Shown here one piece after another: positions 12,517-39,972 of a stretch of 64,000 nucleotides of DNA. Where the stretch lies: positions 1 to 64,000 of the forward strand of contig NZ_FTPU01000003.1 in the NCBI RefSeq assembly GCF_900108115.1. Direction: 5' to 3'. Each line of letters starts with the position of its first letter. The stretch's first letter is position 1. This DNA is from Epilithonimonas bovis DSM 19482. GTDB taxonomy: Bacteria; Bacteroidota; Bacteroidia; Flavobacteriales; Weeksellaceae. A model generated the notes under the pieces. The model did not search any database and had not been told where the DNA came from. It saw only the letters and a list, made by a program, of their open reading frames with translations. The translations under genes and the position numbers were made by a program.

Positions 12517-14268
12517 ATGAAAAGGTTAAGTGTTCTGGCTCTCATTCTTGTTTCAAAATTGTATAACGCACAATATCAGCCTAGAAATATTTCTGATTCC
12601 GAAATCAAAACAGCCAATGATTGGGTTAATAATACTTACAATTCACTTTCTCAGGATGAGAAATTAGGCCAGCTTTTCATCGTAGCGCTTTATACCAACA
12701 AAGATGAAGCTCATATCAATCAAGTCAGAACGATTGTAACTCAGGATAAAATTGGTGGATTAATCCTGATGCAGGATGATGCGGCAAGAGAAATCAGCCT
12801 CGTTAACGAGTTTCAGTCCAAATCAAAAGTCCCGCTTATGATTGGGATGGATGCAGAATGGGGAGTTTTCCAAAGGATTGCCAAAGCGCACAAATATCCC
12901 TGGGCGATTGCTTTGGGAGCCATTCAGGACAAGAATCTCATCTACGAGATGGCTGCTAAAATTGCTGCAGATTGCAAAAGAATGGGAATTAACTGGGATT
13001 TTGCGCCGGTTGTGGACGTGAATACCAATCCCAATAATCCGATTATTGGGAACCGGAGTTTTGGTTCTGATGTGGGTAATGTTGTGAATTCAGCTGTAGC
13101 ATATGCTAATGGTTTGCAAGATAACCGGATTCTTGCAGCCATCAAACATTTCCCTGGCCACGGCGATACGGATAAAGATTCTCATCTGGATTTGCCGGTT
13201 GTTTCCCATAATATTGACCGATTGGAAAGAACAGAGATAGCGCCTTTCAAAGCATTGATGAATAAAGGCATTGGCGGCGTGATGGTAGCGCATCTTTATG
13301 TCCCAAGCCTGGAAAATCAAAAAGGGATTCCGGCTTCTGTTTCTTCAAAAATAGTTACAGGACTTCTGAAAGAAAAATTAGGTTACAAAGGTTTGATTAT
13401 AACTGATGCCCTTAATATGGGAGCTGTAGCCAACAAATTTAAAGCCGGGGAACTGGATGCAATGGCTTTCAAAGCGGGAAATGACATTATGCTTTTCTCT
13501 CAGGATGTCGCGACAGGTAAAAAGCTGATTCAGAAAGCCATTGACAATGGAGAGATCCCACAAAGCAGGGTAGAGGAGAGTGTTAAAAAAATCCTGTTAA
13601 CCAAATATTATCTTGGGCTTGATCATTACAATAATATAAATCCCGAAAACATTAATAATGATCTCAATAATGCATCACATTCAGTTCTGGTTCAGAAAAT
13701 GTATGCTAATGCACTGACTTTGCTGAAAGATGATAGAAAGTTGCTGCCGTTGGATTGTAAAGGCACTTATTATTACGTCCCTCTGGAAGAAGCGCCTTAT
13801 GAAACGTTCTTCAACCAACTGAATACTAAGACGGCTGTCATCGTAAAAAAAGCTTCTGAAATTAATACAATACCTGCCAATTCTAAAGTAATTGTCGGTT
13901 TTCATAAAGATAATTCCACAGCATATAAACCTTACAAAATCTCTGAAGCCAGCAAAAAAGTTTTATCAGATCTAAGTAAAAATCAAAATGTCATTCTGGA
14001 TGTTTTTGGAAGTCCGTATGCTCTGAAAGATATTGATATTTCCAAAGTTTCCACAGTTTTAGTTTCTTACGAAAATAATGATGATGCCATGAAAGCTTCA
14101 GCAAAAGGCATCTTGGGACAAACAAAAATCTGGGGAAGGCTTCCTGTTTTGGTTAATGATAACCTGCGATACGGGATGGGAATAGATGTTGATATACAAA
14201 ATCCAACCAATGCATCTGATAGAAAAAATAATTCGGAAACGAAAAATTCTAAAATTGTAATTGAGTAA
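12517..14268 (+). CDS. Glycoside hydrolase family 3, NagZ-like beta-N-acetylglucosaminidase, exported
   Basis: The 583-residue protein has a signal peptide (MKRLSVLALILVSKLYNAQ). The GH3 catalytic domain (about 35-365) carries the NagZ signature KHFPGHGDTDKDSHLDLP near 210, with the His-Asp general-acid pair of the NagZ subfamily, and the nucleophile Asp in IITDALNMG near 293. A second alpha/beta domain follows (about 385-555). NagZ-type enzymes cut GlcNAc from muropeptides during wall recycling. Relatives in Bacteroidetes often have an extra C-terminal beta-lactamase-like domain of about 400 residues; that is absent, and the sequence ends in a Ser/Asn-rich tail before the GxxExxY element at 14276. 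Confidence 0.88.
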   Translation: MKRLSVLALILVSKLYNAQYQPRNISDSEIKTANDWVNNTYNSLSQDEKLGQLFIVALYTNKDEAHINQVRTIVTQDKIGGLILMQDDAAREISLVNEFQSKSKVPLMIGMDAEWGVFQRIAKAHKYPWAIALGAIQDKNLIYEMAAKIAADCKRMGINWDFAPVVDVNTNPNNPIIGNRSFGSDVGNVVNSAVAYANGLQDNRILAAIKHFPGHGDTDKDSHLDLPVVSHNIDRLERTEIAPFKALMNKGIGGVMVAHLYVPSLENQKGIPASVSSKIVTGLLKEKLGYKGLIITDALNMGAVANKFKAGELDAMAFKAGNDIMLFSQDVATGKKLIQKAIDNGEIPQSRVEESVKKILLTKYYLGLDHYNNINPENINNDLNNASHSVLVQKMYANALTLLKDDRKLLPLDCKGTYYYVPLEEAPYETFFNQLNTKTAVIVKKASEINTIPANSKVIVGFHKDNSTAYKPYKISEASKKVLSDLSKNQNVILDVFGSPYALKDIDISKVSTVLVSYENNDDAMKASAKGILGQTKIWGRLPVLVNDNLRYGMGIDVDIQNPTNASDRKNNSETKNSKIVIE

Positions 14269-14275
14269 ATTTATC

Positions 14276-14786
14276 ACCACAAAAGTCACAACAGTTTTTT
14301 TCATTATTAAGTTATAAAATGGAATAAAGCTAAAGCATAAATGATGATAACACAATCCTATTTGACTGATTTAACCTACAAAATAAATGGTGGATTGTTG
14401 GAAAGTGTTTATTCTGAAGCTTTGAAACAGGAGTTAGCTTTGAGAAATATCAATTTCAAAGCTGAATTTAAAATTGATATTTTTTATAAAAGTAAAATGT
14501 TAAATTGTGATTTCCGATGCGATTTTTTAATTGAAGAAATAATTGTATTAGAAATAAAATCTGTCAAAAATTTTGATGAAATCCACAAAGCACAATTGTT
14601 AAATTATATGGGATTATTAAAGGTTCCGAAAGGAATACTTATTAATTTTAATGTGAAAAATATTGTTCACGAAGGACAACAAACGTTTGTAAATAAATAC
14701 TACGAACAATTGATGTAGGTGAATACCTTATTTTTACTTTAGAACGAAATCATATTATTAAATATATCTTTTATGACTTTTGTGGT
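14276..14786 (+). mobile_element. GxxExxY element A, bounded by 13 bp inverted repeats
   Basis: ACCACAAAAGTCA at 14276-14288 is repeated exactly in inverse orientation at 14774-14786. The left end continues CAA(C)AGTTTT and the right end is preceded by CTTTTA, both as in element B at 38595-39155. The 511 bp unit contains a single gene, 65 bases after the left end. No target duplication is evident. Mobility is inferred from two independent copies with the same ends and cargo. Confidence 0.7.
14341..14718 (+). CDS. GxxExxY protein (PD-(D/E)XK nuclease-like, PF13366), internally deleted
   Basis: The 125-residue protein has the motif GLLESVY and the nuclease-like core CDFLIEEIIVLEIKS (Asp, then E-x-K). 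Compared with the paralogue at 38648, it lacks 11 residues (ACIEVHKILGP) just before GLLESVY, an in-frame loss that removes the conserved Glu and His there, so activity is doubtful. The remaining sequence is close to the paralogue throughout, ending FVNKYYEQLM against FVNKYYETLR. The family is small, multicopy in many genomes and of unknown role. The gene lies inside inverted repeats and has no functional link to the GH3 or bshA genes beside it. Confidence 0.88.
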   Translation: MMITQSYLTDLTYKINGGLLESVYSEALKQELALRNINFKAEFKIDIFYKSKMLNCDFRCDFLIEEIIVLEIKSVKNFDEIHKAQLLNYMGLLKVPKGILINFNVKNIVHEGQQTFVNKYYEQLM

Positions 14787-14807: not shown

Positions 14808-15968
14808 ATGAAAATAGGAATACTTTGTTATCCCACCTACGGCGGCAGCGGAATTGTAGCTACAGAACTGGGAATGAGCCTTGCCGATAAAGGCTATGAA
14901 GTTCATTTTATAAGTTCGGCTTTGCCCGCCCGTCTGGATGTTACCAATCCGAATATCTTCTTTCACAAAGTGAATGTGCAGACCTATCCGCTGTTCCAGT
15001 ATCAGCCTTATGATATCGCGTTGTCATCGATGATTTACCGTGTTGTGAATCTTTATAAGCTGGATATTCTGCACGCACATTATGCGATTCCTTATGCATA
15101 CGCAGCCTTTACCGCCAAACAAATGCTGAAAGCCGAAGGCAAGGATGTTCCGTTGGTTACGACATTGCACGGTACAGACATCACTTTGGTAGGGCAACAT
15201 CCGAGTTACAAACATGCCGTTGAGTTTTCGATTAATCAGAGTGATACGATTACTTCGGTTTCTGAAAGTTTGAAAAAAGATACGCTTCAGTTTTTCCATA
15301 TCAAAAAGGAGATTCAGGTGATTACCAATTTTATTGATAATACAGAATTTGAAGAGTGTACAAGCTGCCAGCGCAGTCAGTTTGCCAATCCCGATGAAAA
15401 GATCCTGATTCACGTGTCTAACCTGAGACCGGTAAAACGAATCCAGGATGTTTTGGAGATATTTAAAAATGTCAACAAAAAGGTTAAATCAAAGCTAATA
15501 ATTATTGGTGAAGGGCCTGAGATGGAGAAAATATCGGAGTTCCTGGAGCACAACCCAGAACTGATAGGGCACATCAAATTATTAGGCAAAGTCAACAATC
15601 TTTATCATATTTTGCAGCTCTCAGACGTGTTTCTTCTGCCGTCTGAACAGGAGAGTTTTGGCCTGGCAGCACTTGAAGCGATGGCCGCCAGAACGCCTGT
15701 TATCAGCAGTAATGCCGGCGGAATCCCCGAAGTTAATATACAAGGCGAAACAGGATATCTGGCCGAAACCGGCAATGTAGAAGCAATGTCCAATTACTGT
15801 ATCAAACTTCTAAGCGATGATGAGCTGTTGGCCAAGATGAAAATTAATGCCAAGAACCGTGCATTAGAATTTGATCTTAAAAATATTCTTCCAATTTATA
15901 TTGAGATGTATAAAAATACCATCGCAAAGTTTGAAGAGGCAAAATTGATAGATGCTGAAGTTAAATAA
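14808..15968 (+). CDS. bshA: N-acetyl-alpha-D-glucosaminyl L-malate synthase BshA (bacillithiol synthesis)
   Basis: The 386-residue GT4 glycosyltransferase starts MKIGILCYPTYGGSGIVATE, the characteristic BshA N-terminus with its Gly-rich UDP-GlcNAc loop. It also has TLHGTDITLVG near 123 and the GT4 motif EQESFGLAALEAMAARTPV near 283. The enzyme joins GlcNAc from UDP-GlcNAc to L-malate, the first step of bacillithiol synthesis in the cytoplasm. bshB and bshC are not in the window. It is followed by a terminator, so it is probably transcribed alone. Element A ends only 21 bases upstream of the start, so its promoter may lie in or beyond the element. Confidence 0.95.
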   Translation: MKIGILCYPTYGGSGIVATELGMSLADKGYEVHFISSALPARLDVTNPNIFFHKVNVQTYPLFQYQPYDIALSSMIYRVVNLYKLDILHAHYAIPYAYAAFTAKQMLKAEGKDVPLVTTLHGTDITLVGQHPSYKHAVEFSINQSDTITSVSESLKKDTLQFFHIKKEIQVITNFIDNTEFEECTSCQRSQFANPDEKILIHVSNLRPVKRIQDVLEIFKNVNKKVKSKLIIIGEGPEMEKISEFLEHNPELIGHIKLLGKVNNLYHILQLSDVFLLPSEQESFGLAALEAMAARTPVISSNAGGIPEVNIQGETGYLAETGNVEAMSNYCIKLLSDDELLAKMKINAKNRALEFDLKNILPIYIEMYKNTIAKFEEAKLIDAEVK

Positions 15969-37347: not shown

Positions 37348-38598
37348 ATGAAATCCTTTATAAACTATCCTTCAGACTCCGATTTTTCGATTTATAATAT
37401 TCCGTTTGGCGTTTGTGTTTTCAATAAAGAATATATTGCTAATGCAACGCGGATTGGTGATATTGTTATTGACTTGGCAACATTATTTGACCTTGGCTAT
37501 TTTGAAGATATCAAAGGTTTGAGCGACAATGTTTTCGAAGGTTACACGATTAATGAATTTATAGAGCTCGGTAAACCGGTGACCAATCAGGTTCGTGAAA
37601 GAATTCAGGAATTGCTGTTGGAAGATTCTTTATTATCGAAAGATGAGAGAGCTTTGGAAGAATGTTTTTATAATTTGGATGAAATCCAGATGATGATGCC
37701 TTTGCACATCCCAAATTACACCGATTTCTACAGCAGTATCCAGCACGCCACCAATGTAGGAATGATGTTCCGTGACCCCGCGAATGCATTGTTGCCAAAC
37801 TGGAAACATCTGCCGGTTGGCTATCACGGGCGTGCGTCGTCTATTGTTTTGTCAGGGATTGATATTACAAGACCTTGCGGACAAATCAAACAGATTGATT
37901 CTGATCAACCAATATTCAGCGCATCAAAACAACTCGATTTTGAACTGGAAATGGCTTTTGTGTTGAATAAAAATACAGATTTAGGAGAAAGGATTTCTGT
38001 TTCCGAAGCAGAAGATGCAATTTTTGGGATGATGATTTTCAATGATTGGTCGGCGAGAGACATCCAAAGCTGGGAATATGTTCCGTTGGGTCCATTTTTA
38101 GGGAAAAACTTCGGTTCGTCCATTTCGCCTTGGATTGTAACTTTGGAAGCTTTGCAACCATTTAAAACTCAATCTCCAAAGCAAGAACCGGAAGTTTTAG
38201 ATTATTTGAAATTTGAAGGTGATCAAAATTATGACATCAATCTTCAAGTTTATCTAAAACCTCAAAATTCAGAAGACAATCTGATCTCTGAGAGCAATTA
38301 CAAATTGATGTATTGGAATATGTTTCAGCAATTGGCGCATCACACGGTGAATGGCTGTAATGTGGAAGTTGGTGATGTTTATGCCAGTGGGACGATCTCG
38401 GGAGAAGGTGAAAAATCCTATGGTTCTATGCTGGAACTGACCTGGAGAGGAACAAAACCTTTGCAACTGAAAGACGGAATTGAAAGAAAATTCATAGAAG
38501 ATGGCGATACTGTGACAATGAAAGCCTGGTCAGAAAAAGATGGTATCCGGGTTGGTTTTGGGGAAGTGACTGGGAAGATTTTACCTGCCAATTATTAA
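37348..38598 (+). CDS. fahA: Fumarylacetoacetase
   Basis: The 416-residue enzyme hydrolyses fumarylacetoacetate to fumarate and acetoacetate, the last step of tyrosine breakdown. Features are DFYSSIQHATNVGMMFRD (catalytic His near 130), LPVGYHGRASSIV, the metal site ELEMAFVLNK and MIFNDWSARDIQSWEYVPLG then FLGKNFGSSISPW, and a C-terminal GTKPLQLKDGIERKFIEDGD. The last bases of its TAA stop are the first bases of the inverted repeat of GxxExxY element B, so the gene end abuts that insertion. Confidence 0.96.
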   Translation: MKSFINYPSDSDFSIYNIPFGVCVFNKEYIANATRIGDIVIDLATLFDLGYFEDIKGLSDNVFEGYTINEFIELGKPVTNQVRERIQELLLEDSLLSKDERALEECFYNLDEIQMMMPLHIPNYTDFYSSIQHATNVGMMFRDPANALLPNWKHLPVGYHGRASSIVLSGIDITRPCGQIKQIDSDQPIFSASKQLDFELEMAFVLNKNTDLGERISVSEAEDAIFGMMIFNDWSARDIQSWEYVPLGPFLGKNFGSSISPWIVTLEALQPFKTQSPKQEPEVLDYLKFEGDQNYDINLQVYLKPQNSEDNLISESNYKLMYWNMFQQLAHHTVNGCNVEVGDVYASGTISGEGEKSYGSMLELTWRGTKPLQLKDGIERKFIEDGDTVTMKAWSEKDGIRVGFGEVTGKILPANY

Positions 38599-39155
38599 CC
38601 ACAAAAGTCACAAGAGTTTTATTTTTAATATTTAAGTTCAGAAAAGGATGATTACTCAAGCTTATATTACAGATTTGACTTATACAATAAATGGAGCTTG
38701 CATCGAAGTTCACAAAATTCTCGGTCCAGGATTATTGGAAAGTGTTTATCATAAGTGTTTGGAAGAAGAATTTAGACTAAGAAATATTAACTTTCAGTCT
38801 GAGCTGAAAATTCCAATAATTTATAAGGGAAAAGAAATAAACTGTGAATTTTTCTGTGATTTTCTAATTGAAGACTTGATCGTTCTTGAACTAAAATCTG
38901 TTTCATCAATTACAGATATTCATAAAGCTCAGATTATCAATTATATTAATCTTATGAAAAAACCAAAAGGAATTTTAGTGAATTTTAACGTTAAAAACTT
39001 GTATCACGATGGTCAAGAAACTTTTGTGAATAAATATTATGAAACCTTGCGTTAAACCAATTCATTAAAAATACTTTGATTGTCGAAACTTTTGTGTGCT
39101 TTTTACTAATTCAATATTAAACCTAATAAAAAACTTTTATGACTTTTGTGGTTAA
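38595..39155 (+). mobile_element. GxxExxY element B, bounded by 16 bp inverted repeats
   Basis: TTAACCACAAAAGTCA at 38595-38610 is repeated exactly in inverse orientation at 39140-39155. The left end continues CAAGAGTTTTA (element A: CAACAGTTTTT) and the right end is preceded by CTTTTA as in element A. The 561 bp unit holds one gene. Its left end supplies the stop codon of fahA and its right end the first codons of the frame at 39139, so it was inserted exactly between two genes. Confidence 0.75.
38648..39055 (+). CDS. GxxExxY protein (PD-(D/E)XK nuclease-like, PF13366), full length
   Basis: The 135-residue protein is a complete family member. It has INGACIEVHKILGPGLLESV (with the conserved Glu and His and the GxxExxY motif GLLESVY) and CDFLIEDLIVLELKSVSSI, the Asp / E-x-K core of a PD-(D/E)XK nuclease fold. 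It ends GQETFVNKYYETLR. Family members are small, recur many times per genome and have no established role. The inverted repeats around it suggest it is the cargo, and perhaps the driver, of element B (inference). The start follows the left repeat by 37 bases. Confidence 0.92.
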   Translation: MITQAYITDLTYTINGACIEVHKILGPGLLESVYHKCLEEEFRLRNINFQSELKIPIIYKGKEINCEFFCDFLIEDLIVLELKSVSSITDIHKAQIINYINLMKKPKGILVNFNVKNLYHDGQETFVNKYYETLR

Positions 39156-39972
39156 GTCTATAACTCCTTCCGATATTTCTGCAATGCAGCTTCAGCAAGT
39201 AATGCAAACTGCCATTGCGCCGCGGCCAATTGCTTTGGCAAGTACGATTAACAGCAAAGGAAAAATCAATCTTTCGCCGTTCAGTTTCTTCAATATGTTC
39301 AGCACGGTTCCGCCGGTTGTGATTATTTCGCCTTCCAGAAGAGTCCGAGATAATACGACGAAACATACTCTTGAAAACTTGAAAGAAGTCCCGGAATTGG
39401 TCATCGGTAATGTTAATTTCGAGATGGTTCAGCAGGTTTCCCTGGCCAGTACAGAATACGAAGACGGCGTGAATGAATTCCTCAAATCCGGATTAACAAT
39501 GAAACCTGCCGCCATCGTAAAACCACCTTTGATTGCTGAATCTCCCGTTAATTTCGAATGTAAAGTTCTCGAAATTAAATCTCTTGGAAATTTTGGCGGA
39601 GCCGGGAATCTTGTAATTGCAGAAATTGTTAAAATTCATATCAATGAAAAATACCTGGACGAAAACGGGAATCTTGACCAGAAACAATTGGATCTGGTAG
39701 CGAGATTGGGAAGTAATTTCTACTCCAGGAATAATGAGAATAATATCTTCGAAGTGCCTAAACCGCTGGTTACAAAAGGGATTGGTTACGACAAATTGCC
39801 TTATGAAATCAAATCCAGCGATATTTTCACAGGGAACGATTTGGGAATGCTGGCCAATGTAGAAATTTTGCCCATTGGTGACTTTTCTTCGGAAAAAGAT
39901 GTACATTTAGTGGCACAAAAGTTTTTGAAAACTAACGAAATCAAAAGAGCCTGGGAAATTCTTAAACTTTGA
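39139..39972 (+). CDS. Flavin reductase-like FMN-binding protein
   Basis: The 277-residue protein has the flavin-reductase split-barrel fold: TAIAPRPIALASTINSKGKI near 23, NLSPFSFFNMFSTVPPVVII, and GNVNFEMVQQVSLASTEYE. Such enzymes bind FMN and may reduce it for a partner oxygenase. The first codons (MTFVVK) are read from the inverted repeat of element B. Homologues usually begin with a short MK-like lead directly before SITPSDIS, so the native start was probably replaced or is the GTG at 39148. It is downstream of the tyrosine genes and may once have been in their transcript. Confidence 0.82.
   Translation: MTFVVKSITPSDISAMQLQQVMQTAIAPRPIALASTINSKGKINLSPFSFFNMFSTVPPVVIISPSRRVRDNTTKHTLENLKEVPELVIGNVNFEMVQQVSLASTEYEDGVNEFLKSGLTMKPAAIVKPPLIAESPVNFECKVLEIKSLGNFGGAGNLVIAEIVKIHINEKYLDENGNLDQKQLDLVARLGSNFYSRNNENNIFEVPKPLVTKGIGYDKLPYEIKSSDIFTGNDLGMLANVEILPIGDFSSEKDVHLVAQKFLKTNEIKRAWEILKL

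Follow-up and report, generated by a model that had tools for sequence, protein, structure and literature searches.

The window, the whole stretch of 64,000 nucleotides of Epilithonimonas bovis DSM 19482 analysed here, belongs to a draft genome of 3.35 Mb in 96 contigs and holds two short units in which a gene of the GxxExxY family is framed by exact inverted copies of the 13-bp word ACCACAAAAGTCA. Copy 1, whose ends are at 14276-14288 (+) and 14774-14786 (-), lies at the junction of a GH3 glycosidase-like gene and bshA, and copy 2, with ends at 38598-38610 (+) and 39140-39152 (-), lies between a fumarylacetoacetase (FAH) gene and a flavin-reductase-like gene. An initial annotation, made from the letters of this DNA, had stated that the gene is framed by the same inverted ends in both copies, that the two contexts are unrelated and that the first protein has an 11-residue deletion. 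All three statements held: the ends are exact at 14276-14786 and 38598-39152, the neighbours differ, and protein alignment shows that copy 1 lacks the residues ACIEVHKILGP, corresponding to 33 bp missing near 14390. The features are:

12517-14268, + strand: upstream host gene of copy 1, GH3 glycosidase-like
14276-14294, + strand: left outer arm of copy 1, ACCACAAAAGTCACAACAG, one change from the 19-bp consensus
14307-14322, + strand: candidate left inner arm of copy 1, a word of the form AAGTT..AAA.. immediately 5' of the gene, read from the sequence
14341-14718, + strand: GxxExxY gene copy 1 (PDDEXK_3, Cas4-like nuclease by family), 125 residues counted from the first ATG
14726-14741, - strand: candidate right inner arm of copy 1, read from the sequence and suggestive only
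14768-14786, - strand: right outer arm of copy 1, CTTTTATGACTTTTGTGGT, one change from the consensus
14808-15968, + strand: downstream host gene of copy 1, bshA (TIGR03999)
38598-38616, + strand: left outer arm of copy 2, ACCACAAAAGTCACAAGAG, whose first base is also the last of the FAH stop codon
38648-39055, + strand: GxxExxY gene copy 2, 135 residues, deletion absent
39134-39152, - strand: right outer arm of copy 2, CTTTTATGACTTTTGTGGT

The proteins of the two copies are 67% identical, and the orthologues of the copy 1 gene start at 14344. The full arm is 19 bp long, with the consensus ACCACAAAAGTCACAAAAG, of which ACCACAAAAGTCA is a 13-bp part; in copy 1 each 19-bp arm has one inner base change. 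Words akin to the candidate left inner arm of copy 1 were seen again in gene-less elements, although inner arms were not established as a firm feature in the 9 of 19 loci that could be scored (p 0.017 against shuffles, 0.07 against mispairs), the other 10 loci, including both window copies, being unscored because one or both sides yielded no arm. The G-to-A change in the right arm (CTTTTATGACTTTTGTGGT) is common to both window copies, though they are non-orthologous, and the consensus base is kept in the bshA-site orthologues and in the FAH-site units of genomes G117 and G252; on these comparisons, the shared change is a hint of concerted arm evolution inside one genome. The right arm of copy 2 also supplies an alternative ATG (39139) for the flavin-reductase-like open reading frame (39139-39972), a gene that in genus relatives has a different N-terminus (ATGAAAACAATC...), and the copy 2 unit thus adjoins, or changes, the start of that gene.

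The arms belong to a chromosomal repeat family. With up to two mismatches allowed, ACCACAAAAGTCA has 11 matches in the 64-kb window versus 2.74 expected, and it occurs 14 times in the whole genome versus none for the reversed control. The 13-mer was found in all 23 genus genomes, and the 19-mer in 36 of 120 family genomes representing 9 of 33 genera, with up to 66 copies (in genome G180) and none of the reversed control in any genome. In addition to its two gene-bearing units, the window genome has six gene-less inverted pairs of 103-192 bp, while the gene-less pairs from five relatives are simple hairpins of 49-55 bp, intermediate forms, or elements of ~115-136 bp. Gene-less pairs have identical arms and interiors that are unshared save for short AAAGTTCAAAAAAG-type words, and since their spacers differ between copies no recent copying burst is visible. 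Judged from these alignments, the combination of conserved arms and a free spacer with no recent burst is the REPIN pattern. The arms are built of iterated words (ACCACAAAAG TCACAAAAG), and GTGGT at the outer tip alone recalls the GTRG head of REPINs. Next to the pairs, the left-hand base is A in 37 of 38 cases and the right-hand base T in 36 of them, giving an extended palindrome, and no direct target duplication was in view at the flanks of these 38 cases, for which there was no clean empty site for comparison.

Both sites of insertion have a long and varied history. Of 80 fetched loci, 78 have the GH3 gene before bshA, and among the 80 no Chryseobacterium or Kaistella bshA locus outside the Epilithonimonas-like group has a unit. 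The 14 Epilithonimonas-like loci (L027-L037, L043, L051 and L058) comprise three with a full GxxExxY gene, one with a remnant, three with short gene-less elements whose ends are partly degraded, four that are empty and three with an unrelated open reading frame. The remnant, in SC28 (L035), is an internal deletion of the GxxExxY gene that keeps both arms. The gene-less elements that persist upstream of bshA (L029, L043, L051) hold a nested second inverted repeat of the CTCGCAGATT type. On a tree of GH3 and bshA the window is basal within the genus, and ancestral presence with repeated loss is the best reading of that tree for the bshA-site unit. The unit also occurs at the bshA site in G180, of another genus, and the bshA-site proteins, including that of G180, form one clade.

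The FAH junction is held by two GxxExxY clades, FAH-I (window copy 2 and eight genomes outside the genus, with the words CACAAAAG or CACAAAG) and FAH-II (four genus genomes and three others, with CACTTAAG or CACATTAG). In other genus genomes it contains gene-less hairpins, an unrelated lipoprotein-like open reading frame, a methyltransferase-like one, or nothing. Unrelated small lipoprotein-like frames occur at both the bshA junction (L028, L030, L031) and the FAH junction (L139, L142, L144, L145, L150, L154, L155, L157), and hence these junctions accept several kinds of insert. A recent duplication as the source of the two window copies was ruled out, the copies belonging to different clades that each reach other genera. 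As reconstructed from these comparisons, both sites are old, not fixed, and re-used. The suggestion of past mobility in the initial annotation therefore survives in part: the ends are a repeat family and both sites vary between species, but the bshA-site unit is old and its variation mostly looks like loss. Similarly, of the opposing possibility raised there, that both loci are ancient and fixed across the genus, the antiquity was borne out but the fixation was not.

The arms and the protein appear to have evolved together. Among the bshA-site orthologues of six genomes, the arms are 96.5% identical, compared with 60-71% for the spacers and 71% for third codon positions, and the GxxExxY genes have dN/dS values of 0.04-0.23 throughout, as expected of purifying selection. 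Compensatory changes, which would be proof of RNA pairing, were not seen in the same orthologues, where the arm changes are single and uncompensated. Across loci, protein distance was correlated with cross-arm similarity, that is, the left arm of one locus compared with the right arm of the other (rho -0.64, reached in 0 of 2000 permutations), and the correlation persisted for the 615 different-site pairs alone (rho -0.54); L108 and L114, which have no protein, are drawn in the tree and were dropped from this test. Arm words other than those of the window, ACCGCAAAAG and ACACTTAAG, also occur. The word ACCGCAAAAGNNACAAAAG (spacer not TC) is present in 0-15 copies in each of the nine genomes with the cognate ACCGCAAAAG-armed clade versus a total of 23 in 71 others (p 6e-8), these counts including gene-less and gene-bearing copies and the owners' own arms. 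Three genomes that carry the ACCGCAAAAG-armed clade (G220, G233, G242) have none of the ACCAC 19-mer of the window, and G180 has 66. The association of the 19-mer with an owner gene, 22 of 23 versus 19 of 57 genomes, is confounded by kinship and is based on all 23 matching and 57 of the 84 non-matching genomes outside the genus.

Arms also occur where the cognate gene does not. In genome G015 the 13-mer is present 30 times and GxxExxY is absent; in G002 and G003, which are without a close GxxExxY, positions 14-19 are perfect in 10 of 12 arms versus 46 of 64 in owner genomes (six own-genome pairs in this count having been chosen by a looser rule), and thus no decay of gene-less arms was found in G002 and G003 relative to owner genomes. 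Intact gene-less arms in genomes that lack the cognate gene count against a strict dependence on GxxExxY. Also weighing against GxxExxY as the enzyme of the arms are the different gene found between such ends in G002 (L240), the differing spacers of gene-less copies, and the failure to see a target duplication or a clean empty site. GxxExxY may be a long-term partner of the arms, much as RAYTs seem to be, without being their sole keeper; alternatively, its loss in G002, G003 and G015 may be recent. The initial annotation had proposed a check of whether intact proteins correlate with perfect ends, and such a correlation did not clearly emerge: full 19-mers were not significantly commoner in genomes with an intact owner (p 0.055).

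Both window proteins are members of the GxxExxY/PDDEXK_3 family, with scores for copies 1 and 2 of 107 and 136.2 bits to TIGR04256 (cut-off 35) and of 103.6 and 132.6 bits to PF13366 (cut-off 22). Of 148 Bacteroidota genomes sampled, 74 had GxxExxY proteins. The closest solved fold to the predicted model of copy 2 (pLDDT 95.4) is Cas4 SSO0001 (Foldseek E 3.9e-3; Z 9.2 over 102 aligned residues, 24% identity); the rows after it, with Z up to 7.6, prove little, and by sequence alone the likeness to Cas4 has an E value of 0.37. On the basis of the model, GxxExxY is a PD-(D/E)XK protein of the Cas4 fold and a predicted nuclease. Across 51 sequences, no variation was seen at G28, E31, Y34, D71, E81 or K83, whereas V21, H22 and G26 are near-invariant. 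Both copies have the invariant residues and the GxxExxY motif of copy 1 is intact (GLLESVY), but its deletion, which is the second half of helix 1, has taken away V21, H22 and G26, all of which are retained in copy 2. The loss of conserved residues put forward by the initial annotation was thus confirmed. In the models, helix 1 changes from residues 4-25 to residues 5-15 in copy 1 and the confidence drops from 95.4 to 85.0 pLDDT. RecB/Cas4 nucleases rely on His, Asp, Glu and Lys as a set; residue 24 is the first one covered by the VIA alignment to 4ic1, which leaves H22 outside.

None of the five further bshA-site proteins in the tree has the deletion, and dN/dS of copy 1 against its orthologues is 0.07-0.09 with no excess of amino-acid change, so that any loss of function must be recent. 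Unlike other family members, copy 1 is without the helix segment that carries the near-invariant histidine, and both the alignment and the model suggest that it is probably recently impaired or inactive; copy 2 looks intact. The earlier proposal that this copy is decaying while its ends remain is consequently supported by the lost residues and the lower pLDDT, but the dN/dS values argue against a long decay. In line with decay, the share of full 19-mers is smaller in the window genome, 5/14, than in any of the other 12 genus genomes covered by both searches (Fisher p 0.003 against the rest, a difference noticed post hoc).

Framing by matched inverted flanks extends to GxxExxY genes that have other arm words (CACATAG, CGCAAAG, CACAGAG, GCAGATTTT and others), as the left and right flanks of these genes still match. 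In a phylum-wide set of 30 loci, the matching exceeded that of mispaired flanks, with 20 above the 95th percentile (p 2e-12), and that of flanks shifted by 600 bases (p 1e-8); L188, which is at a contig end and has misplaced flanks, was retained in this set and scored as a miss. Left-right matching also held for the genus GxxExxY set, in which 32 of 37 loci were used (L107 and L133 were duplicates, and L108, L114 and L124 were truncated by contig ends), and for the S23 set, in which 33 of 34 were used (L025 was truncated likewise). When each junction was represented by a single locus, the p values were 9e-4 for genus GxxExxY (12 junctions), 3e-4 for S23 (13) and 1e-10 for the phylum (26). A positive control was provided by the Y1/RAYT loci of the genus, of which 29 of the 30 fetched, omitting the weak hit L271, behaved alike as a set, with palindromic REPs of their own (p 8e-14). 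A RAYT as the owner of the 19-bp ends was ruled out for these 29 loci.

Placement relative to neighbouring genes was similar for the three kinds of gene. Both neighbours are co-directional with GxxExxY at 11 of 12 genus junctions and 19 of 26 phylum junctions, against a background of 19 of 51 window genes, with S23 at 12 of 13 junctions and with RAYT at 24 of 29 loci; gene-less pairs had no bias towards co-directional neighbours. As a side observation, the S23 four-helix genes in protein operons (L022-L026, L190-L218), which are almost always co-directional with both neighbours, have iterated inverted words of their own, such as AGATAATAGACGGATAGATGATAGAC and GTTGTCGGTTG. Y1/RAYT genes with palindromic REPs (L251-L280) were found in all but two of the 23 genus genomes, several of these genes lying within ~2 kb of an S23 gene.

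What is seen, then, is a sense-oriented GxxExxY gene between same-strand genes, enclosed by inverted arms of short iterated words, and at the bshA site sequence comparison suggests that this gene has been lost repeatedly, once leaving a remnant with both arms. The closest known kind is the RAYT/REPIN system, which, in PMC2817692 and PMC3116915, is defined by an enzyme gene framed by repeats, gene-less inverted doublets, repeats made of a GTRG head and a palindrome, and agreeing phylogenies. The two have in common a single small enzyme gene, an inverted repeat pair, gene-less pairs elsewhere, conserved repeats and agreement between enzyme and repeat phylogenies, and RAYT genes are present in the same genomes. 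However, membership proper fails on the enzyme, which here has the PD-(D/E)XK Cas4 fold and not that of a Y1 (HUH) protein, and on the build of the repeats, which are iterated words and not a GTRG head with a palindrome; moreover, the Y1 genes of the genus own other repeats.

We consider it somewhat probable that the unit works like a RAYT/REPIN element in which the Cas4-fold nuclease GxxExxY replaces the Y1 transposase. By this mechanism, the nuclease would bind and cut its own arm word, as duplex or hairpin, and repair of such cuts would lead to rare copying of arm pairs or to re-entry of the gene into gene-less pairs. A broader proposal, which we advance only tentatively, is that Bacteroidota have chromosomal repeat systems of a separate class with GxxExxY nucleases as their enzymes, in which each protein clade would recognise and cut its own iterated word, keep gene-less pairs and re-enter them in a homing-like manner, junctions such as FAH being held by clades in turn, with S23 perhaps a second, parallel class.

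Other explanations for the framed gene have to be weighed against this RAYT-like reading. The co-directional neighbours of GxxExxY and S23 genes at nearly all junctions, the complementarity of the arms and the like framing of S23 genes in the same genomes by other words are all consistent with an RNA element comparable to the intervening sequences (IVS) of 23S rRNA, whose arms would pair in the transcript into a stem for RNase III to cut, ridding the host mRNA of the unit so that no harm is done. PMC4990558 describes such an element with an S23 gene, namely a short, decay-prone gene within complementary ends and in the sense of the host transcript, the Coxiella IVS ending in a stem of 28 bp, being excised by RNase III and containing an open reading frame in decay. 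The units studied here differ in lying between protein genes (GH3-bshA, FAH-reductase) and in carrying GxxExxY instead of S23. We regard this explanation as unlikely, given that the arm changes in bshA-site orthologues are uncompensated, that an exact 19-mer across nine genera points to sequence recognition and not to pairing alone, that RAYT genes are also mostly co-directional and their placement is thus not specific to RNA processing, and that gene-less pairs are without the directional bias.

It is quite improbable that the units are ordinary miniature inverted-repeat elements (MITEs) moved by an unseen transposase that owns the ends, with GxxExxY as a passenger, despite the perfect terminal inverted repeats, the short gene-less forms, the intergenic location and one interval that holds another gene (L240). 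None of the 29 RAYT loci has such ends, gene-less copies share no inner sequence, and the arm word differs by clade and tracks the GxxExxY tree. In the comparison with MITEs, no target duplication was seen at the flanks examined and no matching transposase was found among the 29 Y1 loci. A further possibility, which appears very doubtful to us, is that the arms are host sites, such as binding sites or mRNA stabilisers, kept for the benefit of the host and that the GxxExxY genes are old lodged host genes. The persistence of arms where a cognate GxxExxY is missing and the conservation in place of orthologous arms fit that possibility, but occupancy of the sites changes from one close species to another, and even a single junction carries different words in different protein clades (FAH-I and FAH-II).

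If the nuclease does read its own arms, the common family of 'unknown' GxxExxY proteins would gain a testable job, and RAYT/REPIN would be one case of a broader plan in which a domesticated small DNA enzyme is associated with a repeat population. Our literature search, which had most subscription journals and all preprints outside its coverage, found no paper on GxxExxY function or on such ends. The window provides a natural pair for further studies, a copy with the near-invariant histidine and a copy without it, both with known arm sequences.

Several loci of the 19-bp family depart from the usual inverted pairs. Two (L247 in G004:C78 and L285 in G258:C1) are direct tandem arrays of arm and inner sequence, in which the listed exact copies are 149-270 bp apart. 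At L235 (600-980), where there is no gene between such ends, a RAYT-type REP hairpin (TTGGCTTTAGCC) is nested inside a ACCACAAAAG pair, and at L250 (927-1158) a ACCACATAGACACATAG pair is nested within another pair. In genome G002, L240 (600-1290) has a non-GxxExxY gene, presumably encoding a DUF1287 protein, with a short hairpin on one side and one arm of the family on the other.
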